This document shows, piece by piece, positions 5,947-63,933 of a stretch of 64,000 bases of DNA. Each line of letters begins with the position of its first letter. Position 1 is the first letter of the stretch. Source of the DNA: Heterotrichella gracilis (taxonomy: Eukaryota; Sar; Xanthophyceae; Tribonematales; Xanthonemataceae); NCBI GenBank assembly GCA_032358255.1, contig JAULBX010031260.1:109761-173760 (forward strand), in the 5' to 3' direction. The position numbers were made by a program, and so were the translations under genes. The notes below the pieces were generated by a model. The model worked only from the letters and a program-made list of their open reading frames with translations, did no database searches and was not told the DNA's origin.

Positions 5947-8900
5947 CTAGAAGCCAGGGCACCGTGGATCGTGAGGCAGCAAGTGCAGCTGGTTGCCGGA
6001 TGTGGTGTGCCAACGCTGGCACACTGCGCAGCGCTGCACGTCAAAGTCTTCGCAGGCGCACTCCCGGCACACCACCCGCGTCCTTGCGGGAGGCTCCAAC
6101 ATCCTCAAAAACTGCACAAACCCCACCAGCTCGCCACAAAACGGCAGGTCAATCAGCTCTAGGCTCTGCACCCCACACAGCGCATCCAGGCCCTCAAAAC
6201 CGCCCTCCCAGCTGCAGCCAGGCCCGATGGACAGGGATTGAAGCTGGGGGCAAGCCCTGTTGATGTGTTCCATGTGGCTGCTATCCACCTCCAAATTCAC
6301 CAGGCTGAGATGAGTAAGATGCTCATACACCGCCTCCAGGGACGCATCAAACGGGCAGATGATGGGGGGGGCAATCTCTGAAATACGCCCAATCATATCT
6401 GTACTCTGGAGATCGAGGTGTCGCAGGGCGGTAAGCCCTGCCAGCGTGGGCATTGCTGACTCCCATGCGCCGCTGGTGGGGTTGGATCTGATGCGCTCCA
6501 AGTGGGGGCAGCTGGTGCACATGGCTATGAGCAGACCAGCGCTGTCCAAAAAGCACTCATTGTGGTTGGTGCCCACTATGTCAAGCTCTGTGAGGGCGGT
6601 GAGCCTGCAAAGGGAGGCGCACAGCTGGCTTCGGTGGATGTCGGCCATCCCTGCATCAGGGCCTGCACGCACAATAGAAGAAATAGGAATTTCATTTCTA
6701 GTGAAATAGGTGCGTAATTTAGTAGTATTGAAAAATAACCGCAACGAGGCAAGGTGCAAAGCATTCAGAAATACTAGTACCCTAAACCCTGCAACACGCA
6801 GTGAGCATGTGCACGCCACAGTGCCACCACCCTAAACCCTGTGGCCCACAGCGAGCAGGCTTTTGCGCACAGTGCGCCCATTCGCAGTCCAAGCAATACA
6901 AGCTACCATACACCATGCCGCCCCATTCCCTGGCTAACCCCCACAAGCTGCCATTTTCCAACCCACCAAAAAATCTCCACCTGTGGTCCGCCAGCTTGAG
7001 CACTTTGAGTTTTTTTAGCGCCGTGAGCGCCCCTCGGGCCACCGCCATGTCCCCGTCATTCTCACGCAGCGCCCGCGTCAGGTCCAGGCTTGTCAGGCAT
7101 GTGAGTTGGCCAATGGAGGCGACAGCTGCGGCACCCATCTGCACCAAGGGGCACCATCTACATCAGGGTTTAGGGTTTAGGGTTTAAAGGTTTTGCGGTT
7201 GCGGCTCCTTGGGGCACCCCACCAGCCCGACTGGTGGTGGAACTGTGCGACACTGCCGGACCAGGCTGACACCCATGCGCACGAGCATAGACCGCTTGGC
7301 ACGCATGGTGAAGGAGCTGGCAGTGGGTGTGAGAGTGTGCACAGATGTAACGCTTCCCAGCATTGCGTCATTGAGATGATTGGGCGAACTTCACATCCAG
7401 CCAGCGGACCGCCACGGTCGCACCACACAACTATCCATGGACACACATGCAGGTGTACATATTGAGGCCCTTGGGACGGTGAGGAGAGACGCCCCGCACA
7501 GCACGCCATCCACGCTGCCTTTGTGAAAGCCAGCAGCCTTGTACACACACTGGTGATATGCAACCCACCGCAGACCAATTGCAAATGGTTCCCCAGCTGC
7601 GGTGCCCCATATTGTCACATCTGCAGGAAATGAAATGAAGAATACATGGAAAAATTGGTGGATAATGGATGTTTAAACGTAGTGTATGTACGCACCCCCT
7701 TGTGCAGGTAGTGCAGGTTGAGGTCCCTGAGGGCTGTGAGGCGAGACACCCCGCACAGCACGCCATCCACAGTTGCCTGCGCAGGGTGCACAGACAGCCC
7801 CGGCAGGTGCAGCGCCTGCAGCCCTGCGAGGGACCACACGCCATCCAGACCACCACGCACGTTGCGCAGTCCTTTCATTTTGAGGCAGGTCAGCTGGGTC
7901 AGGGCGCTCAGGCCAAGCAGCACTGCACGCAGCAAGGACACCAGGTAAGGGGTCTGCAGTCAAAATAATAGTAGGGTGCCTGTAACAAAAGACATGTGCA
8001 GAAACACCTTCAGAACTGGTATACGCATTGCCCACAATATGTTTGCCAAGCTAAACCCTAAGCCCTAGACCCTAACTTTACACACAAGCGCACCCTTGTC
8101 TGAAATGGTCAGGCCTAACTGTCTATAATCGGCTGTCCCCTCCACTTTCAGCCGCTGTAGCGCAGCAAACTTGGCCAGCGCGGGTGTGAGGGGCACCGGG
8201 TGTGTGAGACGCATGCTGAGGCGAGTCAGTGCAGTCAGGGAGCGAGCCAGGGCCCTCAAGCAAGGCGCAGTCAGCTCATCCCCGGCACCAGCCAAGTCCA
8301 GCGCCTTGAGCCGCCTGCGCACCACACAACCAGCTTTAGGGTTTACAAGCAAGGTTAAAGGTCCACACCCCACTATAAAGTACCACACCAACAACTCTAG
8401 TATGGTTGAGCGACCCTCAAGGTTGCCAGTTGGTGGGCATATCCAGCAGGCTATATATGCCCACCGGGCTTTGTTGCTGGAATCCGCGCACTACTCCCAA
8501 GTCCAGCGATGTGAGCCCCAACAGAAATAGGTTGTGTGGTGGCCAGCCAGTGACACATACAAAATTAGCCAGTTACTGACGGGGATATATGACAGGTGAG
8601 AAATATATCAACCGTGTGCCCACCTCAACTTGTGCAGCTCTTGGAGCTCGTTTGTCTCCACACCCCAGGGCGCAGCATCCTTCAGGTCCAGGCTCTGCAG
8701 CTGGGGGAAGGACTTCGCCAGCTCAGTGGCATGGAGCCTGTTGGGCACCAGGTGCGTGGTAGTCTGCACCGTGGCCCTGCGCCACCGGCTACACACCATG
8801 TGCATTCTCCCTGGGCGCAGGCGACCTGCCACCTGCAAAACCAAGAAAGGGTAACCAAGCCCTCAACAGACTGCTGCTATATGCATGCAAGCACAGTGGC

Positions 8901-9032
8901 ATTCTGGGAACGCTCGACAGGTCTACAGCACCCACAGATACTGCGGCTGTTTGGAGGCAGCAACAAACATACCTCAGCTAGCAGGTTCGGGTCCAGGTTG
9001 GCCCAGTCACAGACGGTGGATACTGGCTCCAT
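5947..9032 (-). CDS. F-box-like / leucine-rich-repeat protein, copy A
   Basis: Six exons on the minus strand: 8973-9032, 8624-8832, 8094-8314, 7696-7922, 6967-7138 and 5947-6662. All intron phases (0, 2, 1, 0, 1) agree, giving 534 residues. The N-terminus, WANLDPNLLAEV followed by a MHMVC-x-x-W segment, resembles an F-box, so the product is probably a substrate receptor of an SCF ubiquitin ligase. The middle is leucine-rich repeats (LQSLDLKDA, LTALTRLSMRLTH, LTQLTCLKMKGL). The tail has C-x2-C-x-C, a second C-x2-C and late His and Cys residues, which suggests a metal site. An in-frame ATG 11 codons upstream, at 9065, is an alternative start; I chose 9032 because copies B and C start there. Intron 4 (7139-7695) is long and holds a decayed copy of exon 4. 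The open frame appears intact. Confidence 0.8.
7164..7185. repeat. Interstitial telomere-like tract
   Basis: Three TTTAGGG units lie in intron 4 of F-box copy A, near its 3' end on the minus strand. Such tracts recur across the window. Confidence 0.85.
7445..7530 (-). pseudogene. Relic of exon 4 inside intron 4 of F-box copy A
   Basis: The minus strand reads SVDGVLCGASLLTVPRASI, which parallels TVDGVLCGVSRLTALRDL in the true exon 4 (7696-7922). The match covers only the 3' half of the exon. It is a partial internal duplication with no clear acceptor. Confidence 0.7.
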
Positions 9033-19683: not shown

Positions 19684-22363
19684 ATGGAACACGCTCCCAG
19701 CTTCCGTGGCTGGGCCAACCTGGACCCAAACCTGCTGGCTGAGGTATTGCTAACGGCTACTGGGACGCTCGCCAGTGTGACACAGCGTGAATGTTGCAGC
19801 CTGGATGCCACCAGTATGCTCACAGCGCATAGGACCGACCAAACCGTTGGTGCTTTGCAGGTGGCAGGCCACCTGCGCTGCTCGAAGAACATGCATATGG
19901 TATGCAGCCAGTGGCGCGGAGCCATTGCACAGGCTACAACGCACCTGGTGCCCACAAGGCTCCATGCAGATGTGCTGGCAAGATCCTTCCCCCAGCTGCA
20001 GAGCCTGGACCTGAAGGATGCTGCGCCTTTGGGTGTAGACATAGGAGAGGTCCGTAAGCTGCAGAAATTGAGGTGGGTGAATTTGGTCAGTGCTGGCAGA
20101 CCACCATAAACTTCCTTTGCTTGCAGTGCTGTCAGTTGGACCTGTGAGGATGAATAGGTGCCCCCTTTTGTTGCCAGGTTGCATTCATCTCAGTTCAAAA
20201 TTTTTAGAGCTTGTAAAACCGTTATACAATGTGGCGCCAGTGCGAGTGTAGACCCTAAACCTTAGCAATATACCTTAGCAATATACCGGGGTCCCTAAAC
20301 GTTTAACCTGGTTGTTGTTGTGCACAGGCAGCTGAGGGCGCTGGATCTGTCTGAAGCTGGGGATCTGTTGACCGCGCCATGCTTGAAGACCCTGGCTCGT
20401 TCCCTGACTGCATTGACTCGCCTCTCCATGCGCCTCACACACTCAGTGCCGCTCACACCTGCGCTGGCCAAGTTTACTGCGCTGCAGCGCCTGGAAGTGG
20501 GAGGTGCAGCCCAGTACGAATACATGGACCTCACCATCTCAGACAAAGGTGAGCTCCTGTACTTTCTTACTTTTCAGGCGTCACGGGTGGTGATACGATA
20601 TGTATGTAACTTTATGAAAATTACCAAAAGTTGATATTATCCTTGACAAATAATTTACTTCGTTTAGTCTCTTATGCATATCTGTATGCAACAAGATGTT
20701 ATCTTGCAGCATCTCATCTCGAGCAAGTAATATTGATACGCAGGTCCAGCTAACACCAGGTTTCTGCTGCATGCAGTGCTGCTTGGCCTGAGCACCCTGA
20801 CCCAGCTGACTTGCCTCGCGCTGAAGGGGCTGCACAACGTGCATGGTGGTCTGGATGGCGTGTGGTCCCTCACAGGGCTGCAGGCGCTGCACCTGCCGGG
20901 ACTGTCAGTGCACCCTGTGCAGGCGACTGTGGATGGCGTGCTGTGCGGGGTGTCCCGCCTCACAGCCCTCAGGGACCTCAACCTGCAATACCTGCACAAG
21001 GGGGTGCGTACAGACGCTAATTTGAAATTCCATTATTTACCACCTTTTTTCATGCATTTCTTGTTTTTTGTTTTGTTTTGGGAATGCACCTGTTGCGTGT
21101 GGCACAATGGTGGCAGAGCAATTTGCGGCCGTACATGAACATGCTATGTAATTTTTCCATTGTGACTGTGTTGCCTTGGTGCAGATGGTTGTTGGAGCAA
21201 TGGCCTCCATTCGCCAACTGAACCCTAAACCCTACTTTGGCCCCTGATGCAGATGGGGGCTCCAGCGGTTGCCTCCATTGGCCACCTCACCTGCCTGACC
21301 AGCCTGGACCTGTCAAGGGCGCTGCGTGAAGATGGTGGAGACATTGCGGTGGCCAGGGGGGCCCTTACAGCACTCACAAACCTCAAAGTGCTCAAGCTGG
21401 CCGACCACAGATGGGGTTTTTGGAATCACCAAGGTGGGACGGGGCTGTGTATGATCATGCTCTTCATACATGTTTAGAATCTGCTCAAGGTGGCAGGCCG
21501 GGTTCGGAGACCTCCTGTGGGAGGCCGAGGCTGCTGCTGGAAGCAAGGCGAGGATGCCCCCAGATTAGGGCTGCCATATTTGTAAAATCTAACCTTTAGC
21601 CTATTTGCATCGCTGATTGCTGTGGTGGGCGCATACAGGGCCTGATGGAGAGGTTGATGTAGAGGTTACCGATTTCCACCGCAACCAGCTGTGCACCTCC
21701 CTTGTCAGGCTCACTGCCCTCACAGAGCTTGACATCGTGGCCACCAACCACAACGACTTTTTAGTGAGCGCCGGACTGCTGGCAGCCATGTGCACCAGCT
21801 GCCCTCACCTGCAGCGCATCAGGAGCAACACCATTTACCCTATGGATGATTTGACAATGGGAGCCTTGGCAAGGCTGTCTGCACTGCAAAGTCTCACTTT
21901 GCAGGGCACAGATCTGCTTGGGGATGTTAGACAGTTTCTGGCACCCAGCTCCTGCCCGATTGATGCGTCGGTAGAGGCAGTGTTTGAACACCTCACCCAT
22001 CTCAGCCTGGTAAATTTGCAAGTGAACAGCAGTCACATGGAGCACATCAACAGGGCATGCCCGCAGCTTCAGTCTCTGTCATTCGGGCCTGGCTGCATCT
22101 GGGAGGGAGATTTTGAGGGCCTTGATGTGCTGCGTGGGGTGCAGAGCTTGGAGCTCATTGACCTGCCGCTTTGTGGCGAGCTGGTGGATTATGTACAGTT
22201 TCTGAAGATGCTGGAGCCGCCTGCGAGGACGCGGGTGGTGTGCCTGGGGGGCAACTGCGAAGACTTTGATGTGCAGCGCTGCGCAGTGTGCCAGCGTTGG
22301 CACACCTCATCCAGCAGCCAGCTGCACTTGCTGCCTCACGATCCACGGTGCCCTGGCGTCTAG
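19684..22363 (+). CDS. F-box-like / leucine-rich-repeat protein, copy C
   Basis: Six exons: 19684-19743, 19861-20072, 20328-20548, 20777-21003, 21253-21433 and 21639-22363, with phases 0, 2, 1, 0 and 1, giving 541 residues. Residues about 8-48 resemble an F-box (WANLDPNLLAE, then HMVCSQWRGAI), and residues about 60-490 are leucine-rich repeats such as FPQLQSLDLKDA and LTCLTSLDLSRALRE. By family logic it recruits a target to an SCF ubiquitin ligase; the target is unknown. All splice sites are canonical, so this is the reference member of the trio. In the Cys tail the first motif, C-x2-C-x-C in A and B, reads CLGGNC here and loses one cysteine, while C-x2-C and the final His and Cys remain. It is in tandem with copy B and shares its 3' flank, so the two arose by local duplication. 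Confidence 0.82.
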
Positions 22364-30260: not shown

Positions 30261-33200
30261 ATGACTGATCCTTCAGGCTTGTGGGAAAGGATCAGGCCAT
30301 TGGATAAGCTGACCATAAAAGTGGTGGTAGATAACGAGTCCGACGGCCTGTCCTCAGCTTGTAGGTGTTGTGGTGAGGACGTTGGAGTCAGCTACGCCTC
30401 TGAATTCACCAAGCTGGCATTATCTGGGCAGCCGCTGGACTTTGACAGGGTTTGTCAAGCTGCACATGGCTTGTCCCTCCTGTTGGTTGCTGAAGCTGGG
30501 GGTGTCAAGCACACTCTGCTGTTCGACACCGGACCCACAAGGGAAATATGGAGGAGGAACGCTGAGGTGCTTGGCATAGCGTGCCAAGACATCGAGGCGG
30601 TGATGCTGAGCCACTGGTGAGGCATGCCTGCATGCGTTTTGAAAACGCATGGAAACCCACCGCCTGCACATGCGTTTTGGCTAACTGCAAGAGCTTGGAT
30701 GTCCCGATGTTTACCCGTGAAAACATGGGATTTAGCAAATAACCAAGGCGAGTACCCGACCATTGCACATGCATGCAACTGCACATTGTAAAATGCATGC
30801 ATGCATGTGCGCCTTGCGTCTTTTAAACCTGTACGCCAGCAGACCAGCAAGTGCATCAATACCTGCCACCATAATGTCAGTTTAGCTGCCGGCATGCAGG
30901 CATGTGGATCACAGCTGTGGCTTACCCACCGTGCTGGAGATGGCATGCAAGGACACATCGGCTACAGTGGTGGTTGACCTCCCTATCAACCACCCCGCCA
31001 ACCGAGGGGTCAGGTTGGGTCCCAGCAACGTTTGGCCCTTTGGTGAAGTGGGTACCACCACCCCATTTCATCACCTTTACAGAGTGGCCTGTAACAGTCC
31101 TGTGGTATAGTGCGTCTGCGCAAACCCTGATGATACTAGGGTGACCAGGTAACCTAATCCCCGCCAGGCGCTGCATCGAACAGGTGTCATGGCACAGCTA
31201 CCAAAGTTGTTTGCCTCTTAGGACAGTAAAATGGCGCCGAATTACAAGCACCAACCGTCTCTGTTCCACCCTAAACCCTAACACCCGCAGGACCCTACTC
31301 TCCAGGAGCTGCGGGACACTGGTGCAGACATACGCCAGGACCCCACACCACACCTGCTGCTGGATGAGTGCTTCTACGTCAGCGGCCTCATCCCACGCAT
31401 CACTGATTTCGAGACGGGGATGTCGCAGCACTGCAGCAAATGGGTATGTGCGCAAGGAGGAAGGGTGTTGGACTGCCTGGCATAAACCACATGAATGTCT
31501 GCGGAAATTGCGTTAAACCGCTTCCATTATGTAATCACATATAATGGAGCTGATGGGGTAATGGGGATGAGAGGTGGCACTAGGGGGTTGGGGAGAGTGG
31601 GGAGGGGATGTGGGGAGCGGCCGGAGATGCAAGGCACAAGATTGATGAGGATTGAGTATGCATGTAATGGGCGCCGCTGGTGACGATGACAGCACGCATC
31701 AACATGAAACAGAGTTATGTCTTGTTTCCCCCTGGCATGCAGCTCCTGCCGCAAAAATTGCACTTAGCTAAACGTTACGCCAGCATAGCACCGCGCTGAC
31801 TATGCTCCTCCTAAGTGTGTGCCCTCGGGATTGCAGGAGGCTGGTGGGGACTGGGAGTCTGACCCGCACATCATGGAGGAGCGCTACCTGGCTGTCCTGG
31901 TGAAGGGTAAGCAAGTACCCTAAATCCTAAACCCTAAACCCTAAATCCTAAATCCTAAATCCTAAACCCAAAACATCATGGAAGAAAGCTACCTGGCTGC
32001 CCTGGTGAAGGGTAAGCAAGTACCTCAATGGGCACATGCTTTGACAGTGATTGCAATGGCTGTGGAATGCCATTACCTGGCCTCCAATGACAGGCATATT
32101 ACAACAAGCATGCATCGAGGCATCGGTGATTGCTACACGCCAAAAGGCACGTGTTAATCCAAGTTGTCCAAGCGCCCTGCATTCAACGATGGCAAGGCTG
32201 GGCACCAAACCAGCAGCCATTAGTGTGCAACTTGTTACCACATGCACAGATTTCATGATGACCACTCAGGTACCCATCACCTGTTGCCTGGGTTGAATGC
32301 ATGGATTTACAAAACCATGTGATGTAATACACCGCCTTATATAACATGCCGCAATGTGATGGAGATAGTAGGATGGGCCTGGTACTGGTCAGCGTCTATT
32401 GGGCCGTACTGATGCAATGAGGTTTTGTATGATGCAGGACATGGGCCGGTGGTGTTCAGTGCGTGCTCCCACGCTGGCATCGTGAATGTGCTCAAGGACG
32501 TGGGGAATGTCACACAGCAGGGCACATATGCGGTGTTTGGAGGTGAGCTGCTGGTCATGGAAGACAGATACCGATTAATCATGACAGATAATGATTGGTC
32601 ATGACCATGCGCTACCAAAACAACGATTGCACGTACAATAAGTATAGGTGACCCCCCTCCTGCACTCAATGACACCAATAGAGACCTAAACCACGTGTGC
32701 CAGCCTTCACCTGATTTACGCGAAATTGAGGTGCGCACCAGTGAGACCAGAGGGTCCCTACGGGAGGAGGTCGACGAAGAGTCCAACCCCTGCAGTTGAG
32801 ACCCTCCACCACTTTACAAAGTTGGAAACTGGAAGTGCAGGGCTTCAGTTGCCATACAGGGAGAGGGAGGCGTGCCATCATGACATTGCTACAGGGGCTG
32901 ATCCCCGTACCCGGAACCCAAACCCTACTAGGGTTTATAACTGTATTGTGTGCACACCCCTGGCTGGCAAGGAGGGCGAGGCGCCCACAATGACGCCGAT
33001 TCGGCTTTGTAGGAGCTGAACCCTAAACCCTAAACCCCAACCCATGGATCCACCTGGCTGGCAGGGAAGGAGAGGCTCGCATCGATGTCACTGTGAGGGC
33101 GCTGCAGGAGCTCACTAAACCCTAGAGCGTAACCCTAAAGCGTAACTCTAAACCCTACCCCGTGTATGCAGGGCTCCACCTGGCTGGCAGGGAGGGAGAG

Positions 33201-33383
33201 GCGCGCATCCATGACACTGTAAAGTCCCTGAAGGAGCTCAACCCCCGCCTACTGTTCCCTGGCCACTGCACCGGCTGGAGGGCCAAGGCGGTGCTGGTGC
33301 AGGCGTTCCCTGAGCGGGCAATGCCTTGTGTGGTGGGGGGCACGTGGGAGATTGCATACAGGCCCGGCAGTGGCGGAGGGTAG
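30261..33383 (+). CDS. Metallo-beta-lactamase-fold hydrolase (dihydropterin-ribofuranosylaminobenzene phosphate synthase-like)
   Basis: Six exons: 30261-30616, 30900-31047, 31291-31443, 31837-31906, 32438-32542 and 33172-33383, giving 347 residues. The metal-binding motif SHWHVDHS (H-x-H-x-D-H) is split by intron 1, with the W codon across the junction. Upstream is TLLFDTGP, the conserved aspartate strand. Later come SACSHAGIVNVL, matching the C-S-H-A-G-I-x-N motif of this MBL subgroup, and FPGHCTGWRA, with the last metal-binding His. The subgroup is named after an archaeal pterin-pathway enzyme, and the eukaryotic substrate is not established. The short exon 1 insert with C-x-C-C is unusual. 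Introns 4 and 5 contain decayed copies of the start of exon 6 and the end of exon 4, separated by CCCTAAA tracts. The true exons are those that keep the frame. Confidence 0.85.
31918..31969. repeat. Interstitial telomere-like tract
   Basis: Seven CCCTAAA/TCCTAAA units lie directly after the donor of exon 4 of the MBL gene, between the true exon end and its intronic duplicate. Confidence 0.9.
31973..32024 (+). pseudogene. Intronic copy of the 3' end of MBL exon 4
   Basis: ACATCATGGAAGAAAGCTAC and the following bases, including a GTAAGC donor, repeat the exon 4 end and donor at 31869-31919 with a few substitutions. It has no acceptor of its own nearby. Confidence 0.85.
32950..33123 (+). pseudogene. 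Two intronic copies of the start of MBL exon 6
   Basis: Segments 32950-33017 and 33050-33113 both match the first 75 bp of exon 6 (33172-33247: GLHLAGREGEARI...KEL). Each copy passes into CCCTAAA-type sequence at the point where the true exon reads CTCAACCCC. Confidence 0.85.
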
Positions 33384-35309: not shown

Positions 35310-36724
35310 GGCGAACAGGTTTACGCTACCTACAGCGTTGAATGGCGATGTCAGTGGTTTTTTGTGTGTATTAATTCCTCGTATACTAGGTGCAAGGTCG
35401 CTGCGAGCAGCTATGGGAGCACAGCTGCTAGCTACTAGGCCATGCGCACAACATGCCATCAGAGCTAGTGGGTGAACACCGCATGCGCAGATCCGGACCA
35501 TACTTCACAGCAATGGGTTTGTTTGGAGGAGGTGGGCACTAGGATGAATTGTCCAGTCACAGTGTGTGCAGCATCCCGGCAACAACTTTGCGCGGATCAC
35601 GACGCCACGCTTGCCATGGCTTGCCACATGTCAACATGGCCCTGACAGTCGCACCTGATTGGAGAGTAGGCTTGACGTAGCTGATGCTGTGACCCTGTCT
35701 ATGCAATTACATGCCTCTGGAAATGCAGGGGTTGCCTTTATACGGCGTCTCTGTACATGGCTTGCAGGGCGAAGCCATATTGCGAACTGGCTAGTAGCAC
35801 GCGGGCAAGTGCAGACAACGTGCTTGGTGGGTTGGCAGCCGTTGGGCCACTGCGCCGCAACCCCTCCACCAACGCTGAGCGATATCCACCTGCACTTCGC
35901 CACCGCCTGTGCCCGGTTATCTTACAAAAACACCCGTGACATTCATTGCCCACCTCCCGCCACCTACCACCTACCTACCAGCATCAACAGGTGGACACAC
36001 GGCACAAAGTCACTGGTCACTGGTACACAGGGGGGGCACTGGTACACATGGGGCTGCTTCGAAAGCAAAAGATATTACAGGTAAAAAAACACAGTGAACC
36101 AGCTTATACAGGTAACATATAGCAAAGCCTCATCCAGTATCAGCCAGGTGGCACCAAGCTGCCAGGTACTGTTCCAAACCCTAATGCCAACCCTACAACC
36201 ACATCTGATCCACCCTACTGCACAACACTTTGGCAGACAACCCTACACGAATGCTACACCTCCAATAGCAAGGTAGGCCATTGCACTATTGTGCCCCTTA
36301 GTGCAAACGTCATGGACCCAGCAGCTGCAAGTCTTAGAATAAAATAAAATATTGTTACCCAAGTCTTAGAATAGAATAATATTGTTACCCATGCAACTAC
36401 ACATCCCAGCTGGCCAAAGGCAACCTACCTCGAGTATTCAATCTTCAATACCCACCTATGAGGCATTTAATTTCAGTGGCGCATAACAACAAACCCCAAT
36501 GGGGCCAGCAATCCAATCCCCACAACAAGAAAACGCAAATACCACGAGGACAATGACGGTGGAGGCCTACATAAAATACGTTCAGCCCCACACAGACCCC
36601 AGTGCATTGCCCAGTGCGCATTGCATTCGAGTAGAAATTCAATGTGTACACACTAGGAAATAGTTTCGCTGCCCGGCCCAACCCCTGCAGCAAACTGATA
36701 GGTGCGTAATTACCATCACGTGTT
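35310..36724. other. Intergenic region, 1.4 kb
   Basis: This contains the promoter of the secreted-protein gene (-) and the 3' flank of ADPRM (-). A short duplicated AAGTCTTAGAATA segment lies near 36331 and 36362. I see no further coding exon. Confidence 0.45.
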
Positions 36725-39230
36725 TCAAATCCGCAGACTTCGCGATGTGACAGTGCCACATCCTTGGATGTCCAATCTGTCCTTGTAGACCTTGACAAAC
36801 GCAAAGGCATTGGAGTCCGTGGGAGCTGCAACAGGAAATGTAGCAATCATGAAGGAGCTGCAGCTGTTAAGCGCCCAACTGCAGGTTTCAACACCTCATC
36901 TGAAGGAGACAGCATGCCATGCTGAGTGATTCTCTAGGCGCAAAGCTTTGTACTTGCATAGGCCCAAGTCGGCTACTGGCACCTGAAGGCTCAAGACAAG
37001 TTGAGAAAAGAACCCTATCAGGGCCACGCTGAGGTGCACAGCAACTGAACCAGAGCCTTCCATGAGACAGAGACAGTACTGGACGCCATTGCCGCCATGC
37101 ACCTCACCTTCCAGCATGCATGCTGAGCGATCCTCTAATAGAAAATTTCATTTCGTACGTGCGCATGTCCCCTACTGGCACTTTGGAACTCAAGAAATCT
37201 TCAATGGAAACAGCTATCAGGACCACGCTGAAGCGCAGAGCTATCAACCACTTTATCAGACAGAGATGGTACTGGACACCACCGCCGCCACGCACCCCAC
37301 CTTCCAGCATGGCCTCCAGCGTGACGTAGTGCACCCCCTCCACCTGCGCGTAGCCCCCCACGTGGTCGTGCCCGCAGAGGGCCACCGCCACCACCCCCGG
37401 GGCCTGGGAGATCACCGCGCGGATCTCGTCGTGGTTCCATGCTAGGTGTGTTGCACGGGCGGCACCTGCAATATAGGTTGAATCAGCACGGCTGTCATCG
37501 CACTTCTGAACCTGAATGCACTACATTCTTGTCCTTTTGTTTTGATATTGTAAACCTCATTCCAGCCAACCAGGCGTGCTGCTACTACACCTCAGAGACG
37601 GTATTCATTGTTGTAAAATGCAACGTAGTGCACTGATATTCATGGATGGATGAATACCATTCAAATGGGCCGATGCAGTTGCCATGCACGGGTGGGTATG
37701 CAATGGACTGATACAGTCGTCATTGACAGGTTTGCATGTCAATAGAATGACCCTCTGCAACCGTCACATGTGCTTGGCCGCGGCCTGGCATACCTGGAGC
37801 GGCACAGTGGTGCATGGCCAAAATGACCCGCTCCCCAATGGCTTGAGCGTCCTGAAGCTGCTCCAGCAGCCACCTGAAGCAAGCAAACCTGTGGTTGGAG
37901 CTTGAACCTCCCCTGCCAAATACCTTGGGTGGCGCGAGGTCAAACAGCTCCCGCCACCGGTGGCTCAAATTCGACACTACAATTACAAAAGTTCAGGTTG
38001 CAAATAGCAGCCAAACTGGTACAAGCAGCGCCAAACCGATTTGTGTAGTGAGCTGCATAACAACCAAACCCTGCCCCGTACTGGTCTGTATCCGAGCACT
38101 TATGTCCATGGTAGCGGCACGCACCGCTTTTGTGCCGCCCCAATGCCTCCGTTCCAAGAAGCCATGTTCTGACGCTGGTCATTTGCTTCGTGGCTAACAA
38201 AGTAGTCCCATGCCTCCTGCCACTCGGGTGAGCCCTGCGTGTGGTGGAAAGAGGGGGGGGGCAAGCAATTGTTAGGGTTTAGGGTTTGCTGGGAGAGCAT
38301 GGCACGCATCGGCTGCTAGCTGCACTGCTGATGCACTGGCTGCTGTTGTCAAAGCCACACAGAAGGCAACTGTGAAGTGTGCCAATGCGCACTGGAACTT
38401 GGGAGCACCAAAACCCCCAGAACCCACGTCCCAATGCCTAACCCCTACAAGCTTAACCCAACCCTAAACCCTCAAACCCACCTGAGGGTATCCGCTGTGC
38501 CCGCTCAGCTGTGTGGTGTCCAGTACCACCAGGCACCAGCCAGGTGCCACCTGGAGGCTGTAGTAGCTGCCAGGCATACCCAGCAGCTGTATGGCCTGCT
38601 CTCTTGGCACGGCAAGGCAGTGGTTGCCAAGCACATGGTACGTTGGCAGTAGTTCCTGCAAGGCATGTTCCACATCAGTACTGCAAGTTGGGTTTGGTGC
38701 ACCAAAGGCTTCAAACAGCAACCACAAGCAGGGATAGAGTGTGAGTTGTGTGCCTTCACGCACCAGCTTGGCAAAGATGTCTCTTAGCCTGGTGAGATCT
38801 CTCACGGCCTGGTTGGGCTGCAAGAATGGTGGCTATCAGAAAGGGACTGCAGAAATCATCCAATACCCACCCACCAAAAGCTTCTATTGCAAGCAGGGGC
38901 AATAATCTACCAAGTGTAGACGAACCTCCTCCGGGCCGTATCCATCCACTATGTCACCCAAGTGCAAAACGAAGCTCAGTGGGAGGGTTGAGCCCTTCCA
39001 GGCTTGCACAGCTTGCTCAAGCTTGCCAGGAACCTCTCGGTATCGCTGCGTCCGCGTTTCTGTAGTTCCATTCTCCTGGAAAAGCAGTGGGTTGGTGTGT
39101 GATGAGAGTATGCTGGGCAAACCTGGGGTACAAACGCATTGTACACATCGTGTTGGCTTACCTTCTCTGCATACTGACAGTCAGCAGCCAAACCAAATGA
39201 AAACTCAGGGATGTCTGTAAGGTCTGTCAT
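36725..39230 (-). CDS. ADPRM: Manganese-dependent ADP-ribose/CDP-alcohol diphosphatase (metallophosphoesterase)
   Basis: Seven exons on the minus strand: 39162-39230, 38926-39075, 38482-38817, 38125-38234, 37794-37873, 37301-37465 and 36725-36825, giving 336 residues, near the usual family length. Calcineurin-type metal motifs appear in order: FSFGLAADCQYAE (D-x-Q in place of D-x-H, typical of ADPRM), LHLGDIVDGYG (GD), HVLGNHC (GNH), AMHHCA and CGHDHVGGY (GHDH). The C-terminus, NAFAFVKVYKDRLDIQGCGTV, matches the plant ADPRM ending. Members hydrolyse ADP-ribose and CDP-alcohols with Mn2+ and are usually cytosolic. Exon 2 ends at an unusual GTTCGT donor. The last intron (36826-37300) holds two diverged tandem copies of about 205 bp, each including the final bases of exon 6; the phase 1 junction to 36825 restores the conserved C-terminus. 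Confidence 0.88.
36908..37320. repeat. Diverged tandem duplication spanning the end of ADPRM exon 6 and its intron
   Basis: Unit 1 (about 36908-37115) and unit 2 (about 37120-37320) align along their length, for example TACTGGCACCTGAAGGCTCA with TACTGGCACTTTGGAACTCA, and both end in CACCTTCCAGCATG or CACCTTCCAGCATGC. Only unit 2 contains the real exon 6 end and donor. Confidence 0.8.
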
Positions 39231-43200: not shown

Positions 43201-46200
43201 TGTAAACAGATACGTATGCAACATGCAGTAGTAGTACATATGCTTCCATGAAAAAGAGAACGAGTGTCAATGAAATATAAACGACACCGACACTGATCAC
43301 ATGGATGGCCCAGTGCATGGCAATCATTTTTGTACTATTTAAATCGTAAAAACTTTTATTTCTACAGTTTAAATATATTATCCATGGCACTGCACCACAT
43401 AGGTTCGCACTTTTGGGTTTCTTCACTCTGTGGGCCCCCACAACGTGCGCATCTTTCTTGATGAATATGGGCCGCCCGTGACCCGACCTATCAGAGGTCT
43501 CCAATGCATGCCGCACCCTGCACACCGCAAGCGCTGTTCAGACAGAGAGCAGGCACTGCAGGTATTGGGTCCTTCCCGCAAATGGCCGTTGGCATACAGT
43601 TACCAAGGCATGTGGCCAGCTACGTAGTCGCTGTGTCAAAGGCAGGACCCATTTTAACCAGTGAGTCATACTGGGTGCAATCTTTGAATGCATGGACGGT
43701 TGCATGCACATGATATTCCTGACCCTTTGTAATTTTGCGGTCCAGCCCACTCAACACCTCTGCAAACACACAGCACACCGCCTTGCAGCTATATCCCACT
43801 CATGCATTGCCTGCCCCGTCGATCCTTCCCTCTCTACAACTTGCCACCACAGCAACACAGCAATGCATGCCCATGCATCTCGCACCCACCACTCCCCCGC
43901 CCCCCTATGGTGGAGGGTAAGGCTCAAGTCAACAAAGCACTTGAACCACAACCTCATTAACTCTGATGACAACCAAGGTGATGGGAGATCACGGGTGCGG
44001 ATTTCATGGTTACCGCCAAAGGTTTAGGGTTTAGGGTTCTCACGCTGCAGCATGGGTGTCCTCCTCTGTCGCCCACCTCCTCCACTGCCTGATGCGCAGC
44101 ACCGCGAGCCCATACACCACAAATGCTGTGATGATGTGCATGACCGCGATGGTGAACACAAACAGGTGGATCTGGTGCAGCACCGTGGATGAGGTAGCCG
44201 GGACCTTGCCCGCCGAGCATTCGGGGTGGTTCAGCTGGACCTGGCCGTTGGTGGAAAGGAAAGGAGATTAACAATGATTGGTGACGGTCAGTCAACAGTT
44301 TGAGTAATGGAATCATCTGCGCAAAGAACAAACGTAGATGAAATGAAAGGACAAGTTTCTATGCAGCCTATCCGTGTAGGTTACGGAGGGGGTTTGGCAA
44401 ATAGGATGGCGTTGCCGCTTTCTCGCTACGTTCCCTACCTTGCCTTCGCAGACGGGGAGCTCTGGCTCTGATGACTCGCTTGCCATCAGTGAGCGCAGCA
44501 GGTGGCGGTTGTGGTGCTGCACATCGGGGGGCGGTGCGCCGCTGCCCGCTGCTTGCCCACTGTACCCCGGGGCGGGGGCCAGCAGCTTATGGTAGTCGTA
44601 CTGCATGGGCAGTGGCAGGGCTTGAGATCGGAGCCCTAGATTGATATGCTGGAAAAAATACCGCATTTGCAAGTTTATATAAAGTGCGTTTATATTCTGA
44701 AACAATACTGAATTTTTGAAATGTATATAAAGTGCGTCAATATGACACCCTTGAATCTAGTCGCTGCACCCGACACCCTGCACCAGCTTGTAAACATGCA
44801 GCCCTGGGATGGCATAGATAAGCTGCCCTTGATGACACCCTAAAACCTAATTATAGCCACAGTCACATTACACGCATGACTTTCATTCAGCCTTCAAGGA
44901 CAAGGCTGGCCAGCGACAGTGGCCCCACGCCATGCACTTCTGTGCATCTTCATTACAGAAGGACAGGGACTGCGGGTCTATGTTGATCCAATAACGCCAC
45001 TGACTCTGGCCACAAACTACGCCATGCTGTCTTACCCCATTGATGCAGGGGATGATCTTGTCAGCACATCATGTAGCGCGTGGCAGGATGCATGGAGCCA
45101 TGCAAAGATTACACAGGGTCAATGCAATCACGAATCCATACAGGTATACCACCAAAGGCCTCCCTGAAAGTCCTGTATCCTCCTCCAATACCATTCTTGA
45201 AATTGTATAAAATCCTATATCCGAAGATACTGGTGCCACTTACGTAGGGGTTCACGCATTCGGGGTCGTGGTTGTCGCAGTTGCAGTAGTCGGGGCCGCA
45301 GTTGAGCGACTCTTTGAAGCAGAAACTCACCCCCGCTGTGTCCTTGAGGCAGCAGTCACACGTATACATGCCACCCAGGATGGTCCACGTGTCTGGTTGC
45401 GATATATTTACTGCAAATGAGTCACCAGGCCGTCAGCATGCGGCAGATAAATAGATCCAGTTCGCTACTTTGATGCAGTTGCAGTTGACAATGGACTTTG
45501 GCGCTCACAATTCTCTCATGATTCTGTGACATACAGGTGCAAGACTGGTGCTTTGGCGACAGGCTGGTCTGTGGTCCAGTTCCTGCCTCTCTTGGTGGTG
45601 GTTCCAAGGTGGCAACCTAGATCTGAAGCAACCACTTGCTTTGCCCATGGCTGGAGGGCAAAACCAATGTGGGATAACACCACTCCACAATTTGAGGCAG
45701 GCTGCTTGCACACACTGAGCACATCAGAACCCTGTAATTGATACTCTGAACACCCACCGTAAAACATGATGCAGACCGTTGGCACACACTGAGCAACCCT
45801 AAACCCAAACCGTTAACCCTGACCAACACTGCATATATCATTGACACAGACTGCTCCACACACTGAGCAAACCCTCACCCCTCACCCCTAAACCCTAAAC
45901 CCTAAACTCTGCACACACACCGCATATCTTTGACACAGACTGCTCCACACACTGAGCAAACCCTCACCCCTAAACCCTAAACACTGCACACACACCGCAT
46001 ATATTTGACACAGACTGCTCGCACACGCTGAGCTCACCCTCAACCCTACACCCTGCACACCCACCGCATATCTTTGAGACGGACTGCTGGCACACGCTGA
46101 GCAGCAGGCTGATGAAGCCCAGCACCGTGAGCTCGCTGATCATCTTCTGCACAGCGCTCTGCACGCCACACAGGGTGGGTTAGAGGGTTGGGCACCGAGG

Positions 46201-47598: not shown

Positions 47599-50191
47599 AT
47601 GCGGAGCATTGTCGCAAGCCTGTTGCATACCAGTGCCAGCCTTGCCAGCCGCTGCGCGCTATCCCCTCTGCATGCCTCCAGGAGGCTGTGCACCGCCCCT
47701 GAGGTCGAGTGCATCGTCATTGGAGCAGGTATACAGCCCAAACCACCCCTGGTGTGGTGGCAGGAATCTGGCCATTGTCTATCATGGTACAGCTAAGTGA
47801 CAACTATTCAACGCTTCAATTCCCAACTCATGCCTCCTCAACCGCTGTGACTTCGTACATGGAGCCAAAGTATGTCCCGCCCCCCACCCTCCACCACACA
47901 TACACCTCCCCAACCCAGCACCCCCCCGCTGTCCTCACTGTGCAAGTGTCAACTGCTGGTCAGGTGTCGTGGGCCTGGCTGTGGCACGGAGCCTGGCGCT
48001 GAGCGGCACGGAGGTGGTGGTGCTGGAGGCAGCTGACGCCATTGGCACTGAGACCAGCTCCCGCAACAGCGAGGTGGTACACGCAGGTACCAAACCCTAA
48101 CCCTAAACGTGCGACACAATTTTTGCCCCAGTGGTCTACCACAACAACGCCACGTGTTCCCTGTGTAACTTCCCGTTGCATGAGCATTCTGCTTCAACCT
48201 CAAGCAGTGGCGCATACACCCCAAATCTTTACGCTGAAGGGAATGTAAGCTGTAACCAGGCAACGATCTCCAACTGGCCGCCTCCCATTCACTCATTTTC
48301 CGCCCTTTGATGCAGGCATCTGCTACCCTTGATGCAGACTACCCGTTGATGCAGGCATGTACTACCCCTTGATGCAGGCATGTACTACCCCTTGATGCAG
48401 GCATCTACTACCCACAAGGCAGCCTCAAGGCCAGGCTGTGCGTGCAAGGCAGGCAGCAGCTGTACGCCTTCTGTGACAGCCATGGCGTGCTGCACAAGCA
48501 ACTCGGCAAGCTGATCGTGGCAACCGGGGAGGGTCAGGTGCCCAAGCTGCGCCAGCTCCAGTCAGCAGCAGCAGCCAATGGGGTGGCGCTGCAGTGGCTG
48601 GGTGGGGCTGAGGCCATGGGACTGGAGCCGGCGCTGCGCTGCGTTGCTGGGCTGCTGTCGCCGCACACAGGCATTGTGGACAGCCACAGGTGGGACCTAT
48701 GGGAACAGCGTGTACATGTAGACAGCATTTCATCGCCGCAGCATGCTATCCATTACTGCTTTCTTGATGGATAGGTTAAGTGTCAGTAAGCCAATGGGAA
48801 GGCTTGTTCCTTGTCATATTACCATATGCAGAAACTGCATTCCATTGAGAATCATTCATGTCGTGTGATGCGTAGTACAAGCACGATGCCAGCACTGGGG
48901 TCTCACGGCATAACATCTTTACCTGCAATTGGCAAGTATGGCCTGCATACCCATTATTGTCCCCACATGCCTCTTTGCCGTGCCTGTTGCAAAGACAGAC
49001 CTGATTTAACCGGCAATGGATGACACCTGTCTTGCTGCTGGTTCAGCTTCATGCTGGCATTGCAAGGCGAGGCGGAGCAACATGGAGCCATGCTGGCACT
49101 CTCCAGCAGGGTGGTGGGGGGCGACGTCTCAGGTATGTCTGTACTCAGCAGTTGTGTTAGATTCATCGTCAAAATGCCAACAGTCTAGGCACAATGAATG
49201 TGGTTGCCAGGTGTGGAGCGCATCATTTCCGTGCTTTGGATTTAGGGTTTGGGGTTTGTCATATGTTGCCTGATGCTGCGGACATCGAGCCTGATTTGAT
49301 CATTTTTTATTTGATGGAGTTTTATGTTGGTGTTGCACAGCTCATCAGCACATGTACAGTGCATGAGCACAGGATTCCCTGGGTTGCAGGTCCTGTGAAG
49401 ACGCTGCAAGTGCAGGACAGCGTGTCTGGCCAGGTCACCGGGGTCACCTGCCGGATGGTGGTCAACAGCGCGGGGCTGCATGCACAGCACGTGGCATCGC
49501 GCCTGCAGGGTGTGGACGCGGCTACCATCCCTCGGCGCCACATGGCGAGGGGCTGCTACTTCTCAATGGCTGGTGGGTTCACTTGGAAATGTTTGTTTCT
49601 GAGCAGGCAGCTGAGATCAGGTTGCTGGGGGCATCGCTTTGCAGCACATGCCTTTGACTTACTGCCACCTTCACAATGCCTGACTGGTACAGAGTGTTGG
49701 AAAGGCTGATGCGCTGATTTGCGATGCGCTGATGTGCATTATGCGCTGATGAAAGAATGGCCATTTAGCATTAAAATGGTGCAGGCCGGGCGCCCTTCTC
49801 TCGCCTCATCTACCCGATCCCTGAAGATGGCGGCCTGGGGGTGCACCTCACTCTGGACATGGCTGGCCAAGCTCGGTTCGGACCCGATGTGGAGTGGGTG
49901 GACAGCATCAGCTATGGTGTGGACCCTCAAAGGGCCGAGGCCTTCTACCCAGCCGTTCGCGCATACTACCCAGACCTCCAGGATGGCTCGCTGCATGCTG
50001 ACTATGCTGGCATCAGGCCAAAGCTGTCGGGACCGGGGCAGGCAGCAGCGGACTTTTGTGTGCAAGGGAAGCAGCAGCATGGGGTTCCAGGTCTGGTCAA
50101 CCTGTATGGCGTCGAGTCACCAGGGCTCACAGCGTCCTTGGCCATCGGGGATGCGGTTGGGAGGCTGTTGAAGGGCAGCTCACGGGTGTGA
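47599..50191 (+). CDS. L2HGDH: L-2-hydroxyglutarate dehydrogenase, mitochondrial
   Basis: Six exons: 47599-47728, 47964-48086, 48401-48689, 49047-49132, 49390-49572 and 49785-50191, giving 405 residues. The first 35 residues are Arg/Ser/Ala-rich without acidic residues, fitting a mitochondrial presequence. The FAD-binding Rossmann motif [19 protein letters not shown] spans intron 1 and is followed by [17 protein letters not shown], a signature of this family of FAD-linked oxidases. Later blocks include [37 protein letters not shown], the FGPDVEW motif and the C-terminal [17 protein letters not shown]. The enzyme oxidises L-2-hydroxyglutarate to 2-oxoglutarate, a metabolite-repair step. The acceptor of exon 3 is preceded by four decayed copies of itself. 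The ATG at 47599 is the first in frame that gives a presequence. Confidence 0.9.
48308..48413 (+). repeat. 23-bp tandem copies of an acceptor site
   Basis: Units beginning TGATGCAG start at about 48308, 48330, 48347, 48370 and 48393. Each carries an AG acceptor and, in most, the first exon bases GCATSTACTACCC. Only the last unit runs into exon 3 (48401 onward). Confidence 0.88.
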
Positions 50192-60073: not shown

Positions 60074-61003
60074 TTTGTGTACATGAATATGTGGCACTGT
60101 GTGCACGGTGAGGTGTAACAATACCACTCGCCCAGAAACTATACAACCACCTCCAGTGCGCCTATGCTATTGCTTATAAGCTCACTGCTTTGCCAAGCTC
60201 GCCTGGTGGTATGTAAATGGAACCTCCGTAGACGTTGCTGTATACAAGTCGTGAGCGAGCTGCAGCTTTACACACGGAGGAGGACTTGGCTTCGTGGGTG
60301 CCATCTGAGTCAGCAGGTCAAATTTAAACTTTAAGTTTATTCAGTATTTCATATTTTAGATATAAAATTTTATGCTAATGCCACCACCCTCTCGTGCCCT
60401 ACCCAAGGGTTCACAGCAACTGAGGGAAAAGGAGACCCACAAGCAGTGCAGGACGGTAGACAGCATTCGATGCGCAATGAGTTACATTGCATGCATAAGA
60501 GGCCTGCACATGCGATGGTTTTCCTCCTCAATACAAAAACAGCATTCCGGAATAAGTATTGCACAAGTGCAGCGCCAAATGCCACAAACTTGACATCCGT
60601 GGCACATCCTACCCAATGCACCAACAAACTGCGGTTGAGAAACACTCATGGAGACCACATACTCAGTATCCGCCATCTCTGCCACCCAACTAAACAACTC
60701 CCGCCCCTTCACCCCCTGCCTTTTAGCCCCACCCACCACCGCTGAACAACTCCGCACACACACAAGCTCACAGTCGCGTTGCACTTGGCTTGCAGGTGCG
60801 TATTCTTGACATCCCAACCATTGGCATGTGGCCCCCCGCCAGCGCTGCTGCCATGTCTGCGCCCTCCGGTCCACGCTGGAACAGGCCCCGCACCCCACCC
60901 TCCCTTCAGCGCTGCCGCTGCGCGCATGCCCTGACCTCTCGCGCAATCACTGGAACACACCCCGCCCGCCCCCCATTCCCCACCCCCCACCGCTGGCCCC
61001 GCC
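60074..61003. other. Intergenic region, F-box/LRR promoter and HISN4 3' flank
   Basis: About 930 bp between two minus-strand genes, C-rich near 60960-61000. No other feature is recognised. Confidence 0.45.
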
Positions 61004-63933
61004 TCACAACCTTGTGGGGATGCCCTTGGCCTGCATGTGCGCCTTGACGGCGTCGATGCCCACCTCCCTGCGGTGGAAGATGCCAGCAGCCAGTGCCGCA
61101 GCCGCGCGCGTGCCCTCAAACACCTCGCTGAAGTGCTCGGGGGTGCCTGCGCCACTGCTGGCGATGACTGGGATGGTGACTGCGTCAGACACGGCAGCCA
61201 CCAGCTCCAAGTCAAAGCCCTGCGAAGAGAAATGTGGGAAAATGTGGAAATTGGTACAGCTGAAGGAGCCTCCCAAGAGTGGTCTTCTGCTAGGAAACTC
61301 CAGGAATTTGTCTAGAGAATGTTACGCATGTAGGCAAGGCAAACAGAGGTCTGCCAACGGCATGGGTGGGCCCCACAGGGAGGGATGGTCATGGTGCATG
61401 CATGCATGGACTCGGATATGTGGCAGATATGGTTGCAAAGTGGGCGACAAATATGCATGACTGATGCAGGCACAGTGAACCATCACGCCCCTCCTTTCCC
61501 AGCCCCACCTGCCCCGCGCCGTCGTTGTCTATGCAATTGAGCAGGATCTCCCCCGCTCCCAGCTCCTCCACCGCCACCGCCAACTCCACTGCGTCCACGT
61601 CCCGCCCCTCGCGCCCGCCCTTCACAGTGCACTGCCACCAGCACCACTCCTCGCCATTGGGACCTGCAAAAAGGCATTTCCATTAGTTGCCTGGTGCCAT
61701 ACTCTTTCCGTTGTTGGACAAACAAAAGTGAAGTCATTTCCGACCTGTGAAGGGGAGACGTGGCGAGTACTGCCCATACATAAGTAAATTTTACCACGTC
61801 TGAAACACACAAACTTTTCATGCTACAACCGACTCTGCAACCACAACAACACACCAGCCCCTCCCCAATCCCTTCCCCTTCCGCACCTGGCTTGCTTGTC
61901 TTCACGCATGCGTGCTTGCACTGCTCCGGGTCAGCCTCGTACACCCTCCTAGGGTCTATGCTGATCACCACAGCCTGCGCCCCGTACACCTGGGAGATCT
62001 GCTCAATAGCGGTGGCGCCGGTCTTCACGCGCCCCCCCGCAATGTGCGCCTCAGCGGCGTACACCGCGTCGCTGCCGATGGACACCTTGTCCGCCCCCGA
62101 CCTGCACCAAATGGATTGTGCTTCAGGGTTTAGGACTTTTTGTGAAGGGCACACCCAATCAACAGCGCCAATGGACACCTCGTCTGCCACCATCGGAGTA
62201 AAGGTTAGGACACAATTGCCATGTGGCACTAAGGTGAAGTACTCTGCTGCCACCTGTCATCCATGTGTGCTCCTGCCACGCACGTAGTACACCCTCGTGT
62301 GCCACGAGAGTTTGGTGCACCCAGCTCGAGTACTCTGCTGCCCACCCCCCATGCATGTGTGCACACGCCATGCGCCACGCGTCACCCACCTGAAGTACTC
62401 CGCTGCCACCTCCAGCGCGCTGTAGTGCTTGCCTGAACTGTCTGTGAACTCCCGGATGCCGCCACCCACCGTCAGGGGCACAAACACGCCCAGGGAGGCC
62501 TGGCGGAGCACCTGGGGAGTGGAAATTTGAGGGATTCACAAAGCTGGGATTAGGCTTTGAGGTCACCACAGCTGCCCGTGCACCCTAAACCCTAACCACC
62601 CTGGCGCGGCACCTGGGGGGTATCCTGCAACAGGCAGTTCTTGTCGTGCGTCTGGTCGCATGCACTTCAAGCATGGTGACCCTCACACACACAGGGCCGG
62701 CCCCCAGAACCCTGAACTCTAAACCTCAAACCCTCACCTCCAGCATGGGCAGGTCCCCCAGCGGGAAGTCCCTGAACCCCGTGATGTTGAGGAAGGTCAC
62801 CTCGTCCGCGCCCTCGTCAAAGTATCGGCCCGCCAGCTCCACAGGCTGGCCCAGGTTGCGCACCTCGTTGGCGTCCCCCCCTTCGCGCACATCATATTGG
62901 TCCCCCTTGGTCACCACCAAGTCGCCGCTGTCATTTGCGCGCACGTCCAGGCAGGCAATGACGCGCTTGGCTAGGCCCCGCACTGCGCCTGGAAATAACA
63001 ATAGAAATACATTTTAAATACAACCCACAAAAACAGAATAAACTTCAATTCCAATCCATCTGCATGGCACAATACCCTGATTCATCCGAATGGCACAACC
63101 CACCCCCACCCCATCCCCTGATACACAAAATACACAACCCAACCCCAACCAACCCCACCTGCGTCATGCACCGGCTCCGCCCCAACCGCCAGCGGGTCCA
63201 AAAACGAGTTGAGAATTTCCAACCCCGCAGCCCCGCTCTTCTCGGGATGGAACTGCGTGGCCTGCACCTCCCCCCGCTGCACGGTGGCCACAAAATCGGT
63301 GCCGTAGTGGGAGGTAGCCAGCACCCAGTCAGCGTTTTCCGGGGTGGGCACTGCCCTGAACGAGTGCACAAAGTACACCCGCTTGTCGCCCACTGTGTGG
63401 AGGAGGGGGGAGGGCCGCCTGCGGGGTGGTGGGGTGGGGGGTCAGGGTGGGGTGAGGTGGCACAGGGAATCCAACGGTCCACAGTATTGAATTTGGTGCC
63501 AAGCTGGGATGTAGCAAATAACCAGCTGGTGTTCTCTGCAGTGGGCTTTGGGGTGCAGAGGCGGGGGTGCAGGGGCTGTGCCACATTGCTGCTGATGATG
63601 GTCCAGGCTGGGTGCGCGGGGATGTGATCCACCTACATTTGTTCCTGTTTCCCCCGAAGTATTCCACTCAATGCATTGACCCGATGTGTGACATGCGCAG
63701 GTCCAGGCCTGAACCAACAACAGAAAACCAATGAGACCTCCATCCACCAATTCACCAACCCACCTCTGCTCCAGCGTGTTCCAGCCGATGTGGGGTACCG
63801 GCAGTCCCAGCGAGGTGTCAAACATCTCCACCTGGCCGGGGATGATGCCCAGTCCCTGGCAGCCCCCGTGCTCTGTGCTCCCTTCAAACAGCAGCTGGAG
63901 GCCTAGGCAGATGCCCAAAAAGGGCTTCCCTTC
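61004..63933 (-). CDS. HISN4: Imidazole glycerol phosphate synthase, fused HisH-HisF (5' part beyond window)
   Basis: Visible exons on the minus strand are 63764-63933, 63159-63418, 62738-62988, 62390-62511, 61887-62101, 61509-61663 and 61004-61219, giving 462 residues; the N-terminus lies right of the window. The first two exons hold the glutaminase (HisH) part: [12 protein letters not shown] with the catalytic Cys, [18 protein letters not shown], and ATQFHPEKS with the catalytic His and Glu. Then comes the cyclase (HisF) barrel: [55 protein letters not shown] and PVIASSGAG. The fused enzyme makes imidazole glycerol phosphate and AICAR in histidine synthesis, in plastids in plants. Exon 63159-63418 must start at 63418, not at the nearer acceptor, to stay in phase. 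Introns contain decayed copies of the flanking exon ends at about 62154-62345. Confidence 0.92.
62154..62345. repeat. Decayed copies of HISN4 exon ends in one intron
   Basis: 62154-62196 repeats the start of exon 61887-62101 (GATGGACACCTTGTCCGCC pattern). 62232-62256 and 62326-62345 repeat the end of exon 62390-62511 (GAAGTACTCYGCTGCCACC pattern). All lie in the 62102-62389 intron. Confidence 0.75.

Follow-up and report, generated by a model that had tools for sequence, protein, structure and literature searches.

Natural insertions in rice studied by Vaughn and Bennetzen in 2014 are said to be of the staggered-break tandem-duplication kind. Small tandem duplications arise in mouse cells at breaks whose 3′ overhangs are about 50 bases long, the overhangs being filled in by CST with Pol alpha-primase, which also fills in telomeres; in human cells the duplications are Shieldin-dependent (PMC8355091). 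The events described below are likewise direct duplications of tens of bases, but they lie at splice borders, and between the two copies lies a filler with a median length of 65 bp, telomeric in about half of the events. In the horse, telomeric repeats have been inserted at breaks, some with target duplication and most with in-register bases at the junction (PMC7215372, which also cites earlier primate and rodent work on interstitial telomeric insertions). Short internal runs, in-register junctions and some target duplication or filler are common to both systems, whereas in our sequences flank duplication is common (58/130 runs), the sites are exon-intron borders, and more than 1000 donor-side motif matches are present. 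Intron gain by tandem duplication, as presented in PMC4974935 and PMC2891723, likewise duplicates exonic sequence in tandem, splice-site motifs included; here, by contrast, existing introns are lengthened. Direct repeats around exon-intron borders are a further likeness (PMC11782384), although those repeats, at 4–30 bp and a mean of 11.4, link the two borders to each other, while ours are mostly 28–124 bp long and link a border to a site inside the intron that it bounds.

Intron gain by tandem duplication, insertion of telomeric repeats within chromosomes and duplication by fill-in are each known already. What seems new is the form in which these known repair products occur, targeted to borders and genome-wide; no description of it was found among the matches listed, whose titles and abstract openings (most subscription papers lie outside this set) mention neither telomeric repeats nor re-copied exon edges at splice borders. 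The reading that we favour, with a probability of roughly 0.58, is that break repair lengthens introns at their ends, through fill-in of staggered breaks and with a telomeric seam in about half of the cases.

Copies of exon edges inside introns

The window, that is, the whole 64-kb stretch analysed (C866:109761-173760), belongs to a 68.5-Mb genome of 903 contigs. Its TTTAGGG-type repeats and an Mlo gene would point to a green alga. Density figures rest on the window together with 200 kb of another contig (C2:1-200000) with a GC content of 54.4%, which was the top entry of a genome search with a telomere 17-mer and was chosen before any copy analysis of C2. Another 23 anchored loci (L004, L005, L007 and L029–L048; the overlapping L001–L003, L006 and L008 were left out) were picked for telomere runs and therefore form a biased sample. 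Gene models are predictions from DNA rather than from RNA data, made with a hidden Markov gene finder that was self-trained on these sequences alone and converged on GTRNG donors and TGCAG acceptors. The window and C2 hold 83 predicted genes with 347 introns (median 280 bp); with the anchored loci the intron total is 427. Pfam supports four of the six window proteins submitted (MBL, Mlo, DAO in L2HGDH, and LRR), and its search of the ADPRM and ARM gene models gave no match; HISN4, whose model is interrupted by stops and lies at the edge of the window, was left out. All eight C2 proteins submitted, chosen from 14 as resembling known families, have Pfam support, and copy-bearing junctions fall inside the matches to ABC1 (three), decarboxylase (two), and p25-alpha, kinase and LysR (one each).

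Two measures were applied. Measure (a) takes a piece of the flanking exon, the 120 bp at its end or its start, and aligns it against the intron; in a mismatched-gene control, 1.15% reach score 26 and 0.24% reach score 30. Measure (b), which has no mismatched control, is a self-alignment of exon-intron-exon at a score of at least 30 and also catches pieces that span the splice site. By measure (a) at score 30, a direct copy of the flanking exon edge is present in 47 of 347 introns (window 6/83, C2 41/264), against 0.24% when introns are compared with exons of other genes, and just 2/347 introns hold a reverse-complement copy. In these samples the excess of intronic exon-end copies anticipated by the sequence-only reading of the window is thus borne out. 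When the window is compared with itself, direct repeats cluster less than 250 bp apart, and inverted repeats, self-palindromes aside, have no comparable short-distance excess.

Counting the best match per class per intron over the 427 introns, measure (b) finds 38 copies across the donor and 30 across the acceptor; the remaining matches are 34 within the intron, 14 and 9 exon-only, 6 exon-exon, 4 spanning both sites and 8 others. The copied piece usually includes the splice site, so that the intronic copies carry splice sites of their own. A layout that would create an intron is rare, however, and the seeding of new splice sites proposed in the sequence-only reading is at most a possibility. 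Across 85 border events the medians are 58 bp for the copy, 65 bp for the gap, 117 bp for the period and 82% for identity, and the central 90% of duplication lengths fall within 28–124 bp. Simple two-copy pairs make up 44 of the 68 border-spanning events; the other layouts, which overlap as classes, are gapless head-to-tail or overlapping events (8), events whose filler contains a third copy (10) and events with an extra copy elsewhere (8). The period peaks at 90–110 bp, with 25 of 67 events in this range (14/44 among simple two-copy events). Differences between copy and exon are spread over the codon positions (94/831, 98/839 and 134/828) and 29 of 50 copies carry frameshifting indels, from which we conclude that the copies are non-coding; functional alternative exons were rejected on the same grounds. 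About 0.05 of the introns shorter than 200 bp and 0.25 of those longer than 400 bp hold a copy; this rise is consistent with the earlier suggestion that the process lengthens introns, though longer introns also offer more room for a copy.

In the window, the six-exon MBL-fold gene (30261–33383, plus strand; Pfam Lactamase_B, 3.2e-07) has predicted exons at 30261–30616, 30900–31047, 31306–31443, 31837–31906, 32438–32542 and 33172–33383. The last 39 bp of exon 4 and the following 13 bp of intron, donor included (31868–31919), recur inside the intron at 31973–32024 with a copied donor GTAAG (score 58 by (a); 52 bp and 92% by (b)), and a telomeric filler of CCTAAA-type repeats (31920–31972) lies exactly between the copies. 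At exon 6, the acceptor end and exon start (33169–33240) have an intronic copy at 33043–33114 (score 88 by (a); 72 bp, 85%), and the filler ahead of the exon (33115–33168) contains degenerate CCCTAAA repeats. Further upstream, within 32959–33037, a more distant second copy (32959–32994) is followed by a telomere run (33019–33037).

Other copies in the window differ in their relation to telomere repeats. On the minus strand, the end of an F-box A exon (7703–7778) has a copy at 7448–7520 in the intron 7139–7695 (score 81, 76 bp by (a)), and the telomere run in this intron (7165–7186) is not at the copy border. Three F-box/LRR paralogues lie at 5947–22363, one of them inverted relative to the other two; they share blocks that are 78–93% similar and form a recent local gene family. 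The exon end of the gene read as ADPRM (37112–37277, minus strand) is copied at 36910–37084 in the intron 35401–37158 (score 67 by (a); 70% over 166 bp by (b)), with no telomere run. In HISN4 (minus strand; 62235–62411 in all), the exon end at 62391–62411 is copied at 62235–62255 in the intron 62102–62389 (scores 37 and 30 by (a); 21–25 bp, 84–95%). The L2HGDH acceptor copy (plus strand, intron 48087–48400) is found by (b) only, and its two units, 48303–48328 and 48388–48413, share 26 bp, 13 of them exonic, inside a 23-bp minisatellite (48303–48413). No telomere run of at least 11 bp lies at the copy border in F-box A, ADPRM, L2HGDH or HISN4.

Of the seven genes for which exon-end copies had been claimed, F-box A, MBL, ADPRM and HISN4 thus keep them and L2HGDH does so only as a minisatellite, whereas by measures (a) and (b) the ARM gene (best score 24) and MLO (best 23) have no exon-edge copy beyond chance. 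A CCCTAAA tract at the copy border, claimed for MBL and MLO, holds for MBL exons 4 and 6; the MLO intron (43518–44043, minus strand) has a telomere run 5 bp inside its donor (44021–44038) with no exon copy. Three introns that had not been listed do have border copies with telomere runs. In the intron 2261–2838 (plus strand, (b) only), an acceptor-side copy (2724–2749) and telomere runs (2775–2807) precede the acceptor and exon start (2826–2852), the whole spanning 2724–2852. In the intron 21004–21252 (plus strand, also (b) only), the copy at 21174–21219 is followed by a telomere run (21221–21234) and the acceptor with its exon start (21242–21287), within 21174–21287. In the intron 45393–46064 (minus strand, both measures), an array of exon-end copies (45690–46102) with telomere runs at 45795–45806, 45886–45907 and 45968–45982 lies at the exon 46065–46158. 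The general idea of the sequence-only reading is right, and it is broader than its gene list.

Telomere motifs near the ends of introns

Exact matches to the 17-mer CCCTAAACCCTAAACCC number 2437 in the 68.5 Mb, not all of them shown to be interstitial, against a single match for the reversed word. With up to one mismatch, CCCTAAACCC is found 63 times in the window compared with 3.5 in shuffles. Telomere runs in the window and C2 lie mostly in introns (56, with 6 intergenic and 3 in exons), and within introns the heptamer is concentrated at the ends: after donors it reaches 18.8 per kb at 0–25 bp and 11.7 at 25–50 bp, and before acceptors 5.0 and 16.7 per kb, respectively. Deeper in introns the density is 1.5–10 per kb and in intergenic DNA 1.9, while composition-matched words average 0.7–1.5. 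At the two maxima, donor 0–25 bp and acceptor 25–50 bp, such words average 1.3 and 1.1 with 3.0 and 2.3 for the largest class. The heptamer peak at intron ends is 7 to 15 times the controls. Counted by presence, the heptamer occurs at 51/311 donors, 38/311 acceptors and 20/311 mid-intron positions, and it is rare at the edges of coding regions (within 50 bp of the ATG in 5/68 cases, at the stop in 3/71). The telo-box, a regulatory motif of plant genes, is located upstream of the coding start. Measured from the ATG, the tracts described here do not have that placement, with 5/68 near the ATG against 51/311 at donors.

The donor-side excess extends over the whole genome. Counted as matches, so that neighbouring repeats of one tract may count more than once, AGGTRAG is followed within 30 bp by CCCTAAAC 378 times and by GTTTAGGG 663 times (sum 1041), against 90 and 145 (sum 235) in the reverse order, telomere motif then donor; CCCTAAAC precedes TGCAGG 1495 times and follows it 710 times, the latter figure including donors that read GCAGGT. 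Together with the copies on C2, these counts support the view that the process is genome-wide rather than confined to the window.

Telomere tracts and exon-edge copies are associated. Of 137 telomere runs of at least 11 bp, 7 near sequence ends were dropped; with the telomere masked, the flanks of the remaining runs are direct repeats at a score of at least 30 in 58/130 and inverted repeats in 0/130, compared with 4.4% and 1.2% at random positions, where 65 of the 130 runs lie in loci picked for telomere runs and runs within chains are not independent. Direct-repeat flanks were found for 7/27 runs in the window (inverted 0/27), 11/38 on C2 and 40/65 in the anchored loci. A copy is present in 14/46 introns that hold a telomere run of at least 11 bp and in 33/301 that lack one (odds ratio 3.6, p 0.0017, uncorrected for length). 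Matching by position gives a stronger test: a heptamer lies within 30 bp of the copy borders in 22/55 cases, against 6.6 on average and at most 13 in 1000 draws at the same coordinates in copy-free introns; the enrichment of CCCTAAA near copy ends that had been foreseen is therefore present in these samples.

The fillers between copies are of more than one kind. Telomere repeat is the best fit among 20 words for 35/76 fillers, against 15/400 control segments, while 36/76 contain no telomere heptamer and just 2 of these 36 fit telomere best. Decayed telomere repeat as the origin of all fillers is accordingly not supported, and telomere healing is not obligatory. Copies with a heptamer-free filler are not clearly older (identity, p = 0.13), and telomere addition may therefore happen independently of the duplication, at a hot spot common to both; copy identity does correlate with how well the filler fits telomere repeat (rho 0.35, p 0.002). 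A 53-bp filler shared between loci, considered in view of several 53-bp gaps, was rejected by eye: the fillers differ, and the one at C2 4374 is a third copy. At 24 junctions from 13 loci or C2 sites, where the ancestral side was inferred from the other copy, in-register bases average 1.25 against 0.32 by chance, and 7/24 junctions have at least two such bases where 1.4 would be expected. No telomerase polarity was seen at these junctions. A telomerase RNA-binding domain (TERT) is present in the genome. The telomerase healing put forward earlier is in this light plausible, although it lacks the polarity and is not a necessary step.

Preference for splice borders and its possible causes

Local direct duplications in the window and C2 were counted with the telomere masked, at a distance of up to 400 bp and a score of at least 34, after removal of matches that were of low complexity, longer than 250 bp or largely overlapped by a better match. 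They comprise 45 border, 9 intron-internal, 4 exon-internal, 8 other exon-plus-intron, 6 gene-edge and 1 intergenic case, in 67 kb of intergenic, 88 kb of exon and 109 kb of intron sequence; inverted local duplications number 2 in all. Border copies are easier to detect because their exon side is conserved. Set against the intron-internal and intergenic classes only, with the exon-internal and mixed classes excluded, the border share of 45/55 gives p 1.6e-14 if a twofold detection advantage of the border is granted and 1.9e-7 if it is fourfold, and for copies of at least 88% identity (12/15 at the border) the values are 1.5e-4 and 0.011. These figures bear on the proposal that local duplication is uniform and that border cases are merely over-seen, their exon copy being conserved and exon-internal duplications being lethal. 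Intron-internal copies would indeed lose identity on both sides and border copies on one, and border copies of at least 88% identity reach further into the exon in 16/22 cases (p 0.052). The excess nevertheless persists under either detection advantage, and intergenic DNA has a single event in 67 kb; we regard a uniform background as improbable. About equally improbable is ordinary minisatellite growth, in which a telomere-like word near the border would simply join a unit expanded by slippage. Arrays at 45795–46102 and 48323–48413 and chains in L029, L035, L036, L039 and L044 have this appearance, and slippage could make the gapless events (8/68), those with a third copy in the filler (10/68) and those with another copy elsewhere (8/68), but simple pairs prevail (44/68), the median gap over the 85 events is 65 bp, and slippage would not be expected to favour splice borders.

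A different explanation is that selection, not mutation, places tracts and copies at borders, where G- or C-rich elements or decoy sites would aid splicing or regulation. Heptamers are more frequent at splice borders than at the ends of coding sequences (89/622 against 8/139, p 0.005), and within 50 bp of acceptors CCCTAAA exceeds TTTAGGG on the coding strand by 107:29, with 46:22 for intronic runs in the anchored loci. No such bias is seen for intronic runs in the window and C2 (29:27) or at donors (68:56 at 0–25 bp, 33:39 at 25–50 bp), and the genome-wide donor counts are 378:663. The acceptor bias would fit mere avoidance of TTTAGGG, which perhaps offers a false TTTAG acceptor. Since the copies decay without codon constraint, and score-30 copies also occur in 33/301 introns lacking a telomere run of at least 11 bp, selection seems to us an unlikely cause, if a less remote one than slippage or a uniform background. 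Introners, which are mobile introns, or some other element that makes long target-site duplications would leave an exon edge, a filler and a second edge in the same order as observed, and yet just 20/427 introns in the sequence samples match an intron of another gene, on which ground introner families were rejected. The fillers that were compared by eye show no common sequence beyond telomere repeats, duplication length varies between 28 and 124 bp, and copies spanning both borders occur in only 4/427 introns, 12 more matches pairing the exon sides otherwise; this origin is very improbable. Intron gain by tandem duplication was likewise rejected as the main process: none of the 4/427 introns in which copies span both sites is exactly aligned, and the closest donor-to-acceptor alignment between copies (C2 91008) is 5 bases off.

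A proposed break-repair route to longer introns

Growth of introns by repair of staggered breaks accommodates the direct copies, the often-abutting telomere tract and the in-register junctions, and the break repair with re-copying that the sequence-only reading had invoked fits this anatomy. We propose that a staggered break opens at the exon-intron border when the two strands are nicked at points tens of bases from each other; typically one end would lie a few to tens of bases into the intron, while the other would reach into the exon by a few tens. If both single-stranded overhangs were filled in before joining, a segment X, made up of exon edge, splice site and a little intron, would become X-X′, with about 25–120 bp duplicated per event; the change presumably ran in this direction, from X alone. 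In about half of the cases, telomeric repeats might be added at the exposed 3′ end, or captured via short in-register homology, and this step before joining would yield X-(TTTAGGG or CCCTAAA)n-X′. Chains could then come from repeated events or later slippage. The outer splice site would keep serving the old exon, so that the gene survives with a longer intron, while the inner copy would decay as non-coding DNA. By analogy with the systems described above, fill-in and telomeric insertion in combination could give X-telomere-X′ without new chemistry, with the fill-in enzymes presumably of the known kind and telomerase a plausible source of the tracts.

The preference for splice borders is not explained by known mechanisms, and the spacing of 90–110 bp is not predicted by the break-repair model. 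One idea on the targeting is that edges of mRNA-DNA hybrids might be nicked at exon ends, because such hybrids end where exons end. A more far-reaching proposal, which we hold tentatively and consider somewhat doubtful, is that exon-intron borders are a genome-wide hot spot of breakage and that telomerase and telomere fill-in act as an intron-lengthening engine, re-copying the splice site inward, often by about 100 bp, and leaving a seam, in thousands of introns by extrapolation. If this were true, chromosome-end maintenance would have shaped gene structure; and if it is mutation that favours the borders, DNA breakage would be directed by gene structure as such or by the RNA made from it. The events bear on two open questions, intron lengthening and splice-site duplication. 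As they are frequent (about one in seven introns), can be ranked in age by divergence and often carry a telomeric seam, one genome suffices for a statistical study of mutation at borders.

Some further observations concern individual sequences. Copies of a donor or acceptor with a telomere motif recur about 88–110 bp apart in several contigs, for example at C45:109993/110097, C47:131311/131399 and C13:318016/318113. A LysR-type regulator with a substrate domain is encoded at C2:167113-170666, with intronic exon-edge copies, on a contig that is intron-rich; at a guess, this gene is perhaps plastid-derived or transferred. In the window, the stretches 687–1078 and 4775–5160 are 86% similar and lie in proline- and lysine-rich coding sequence, which we take to resemble pherophorins.
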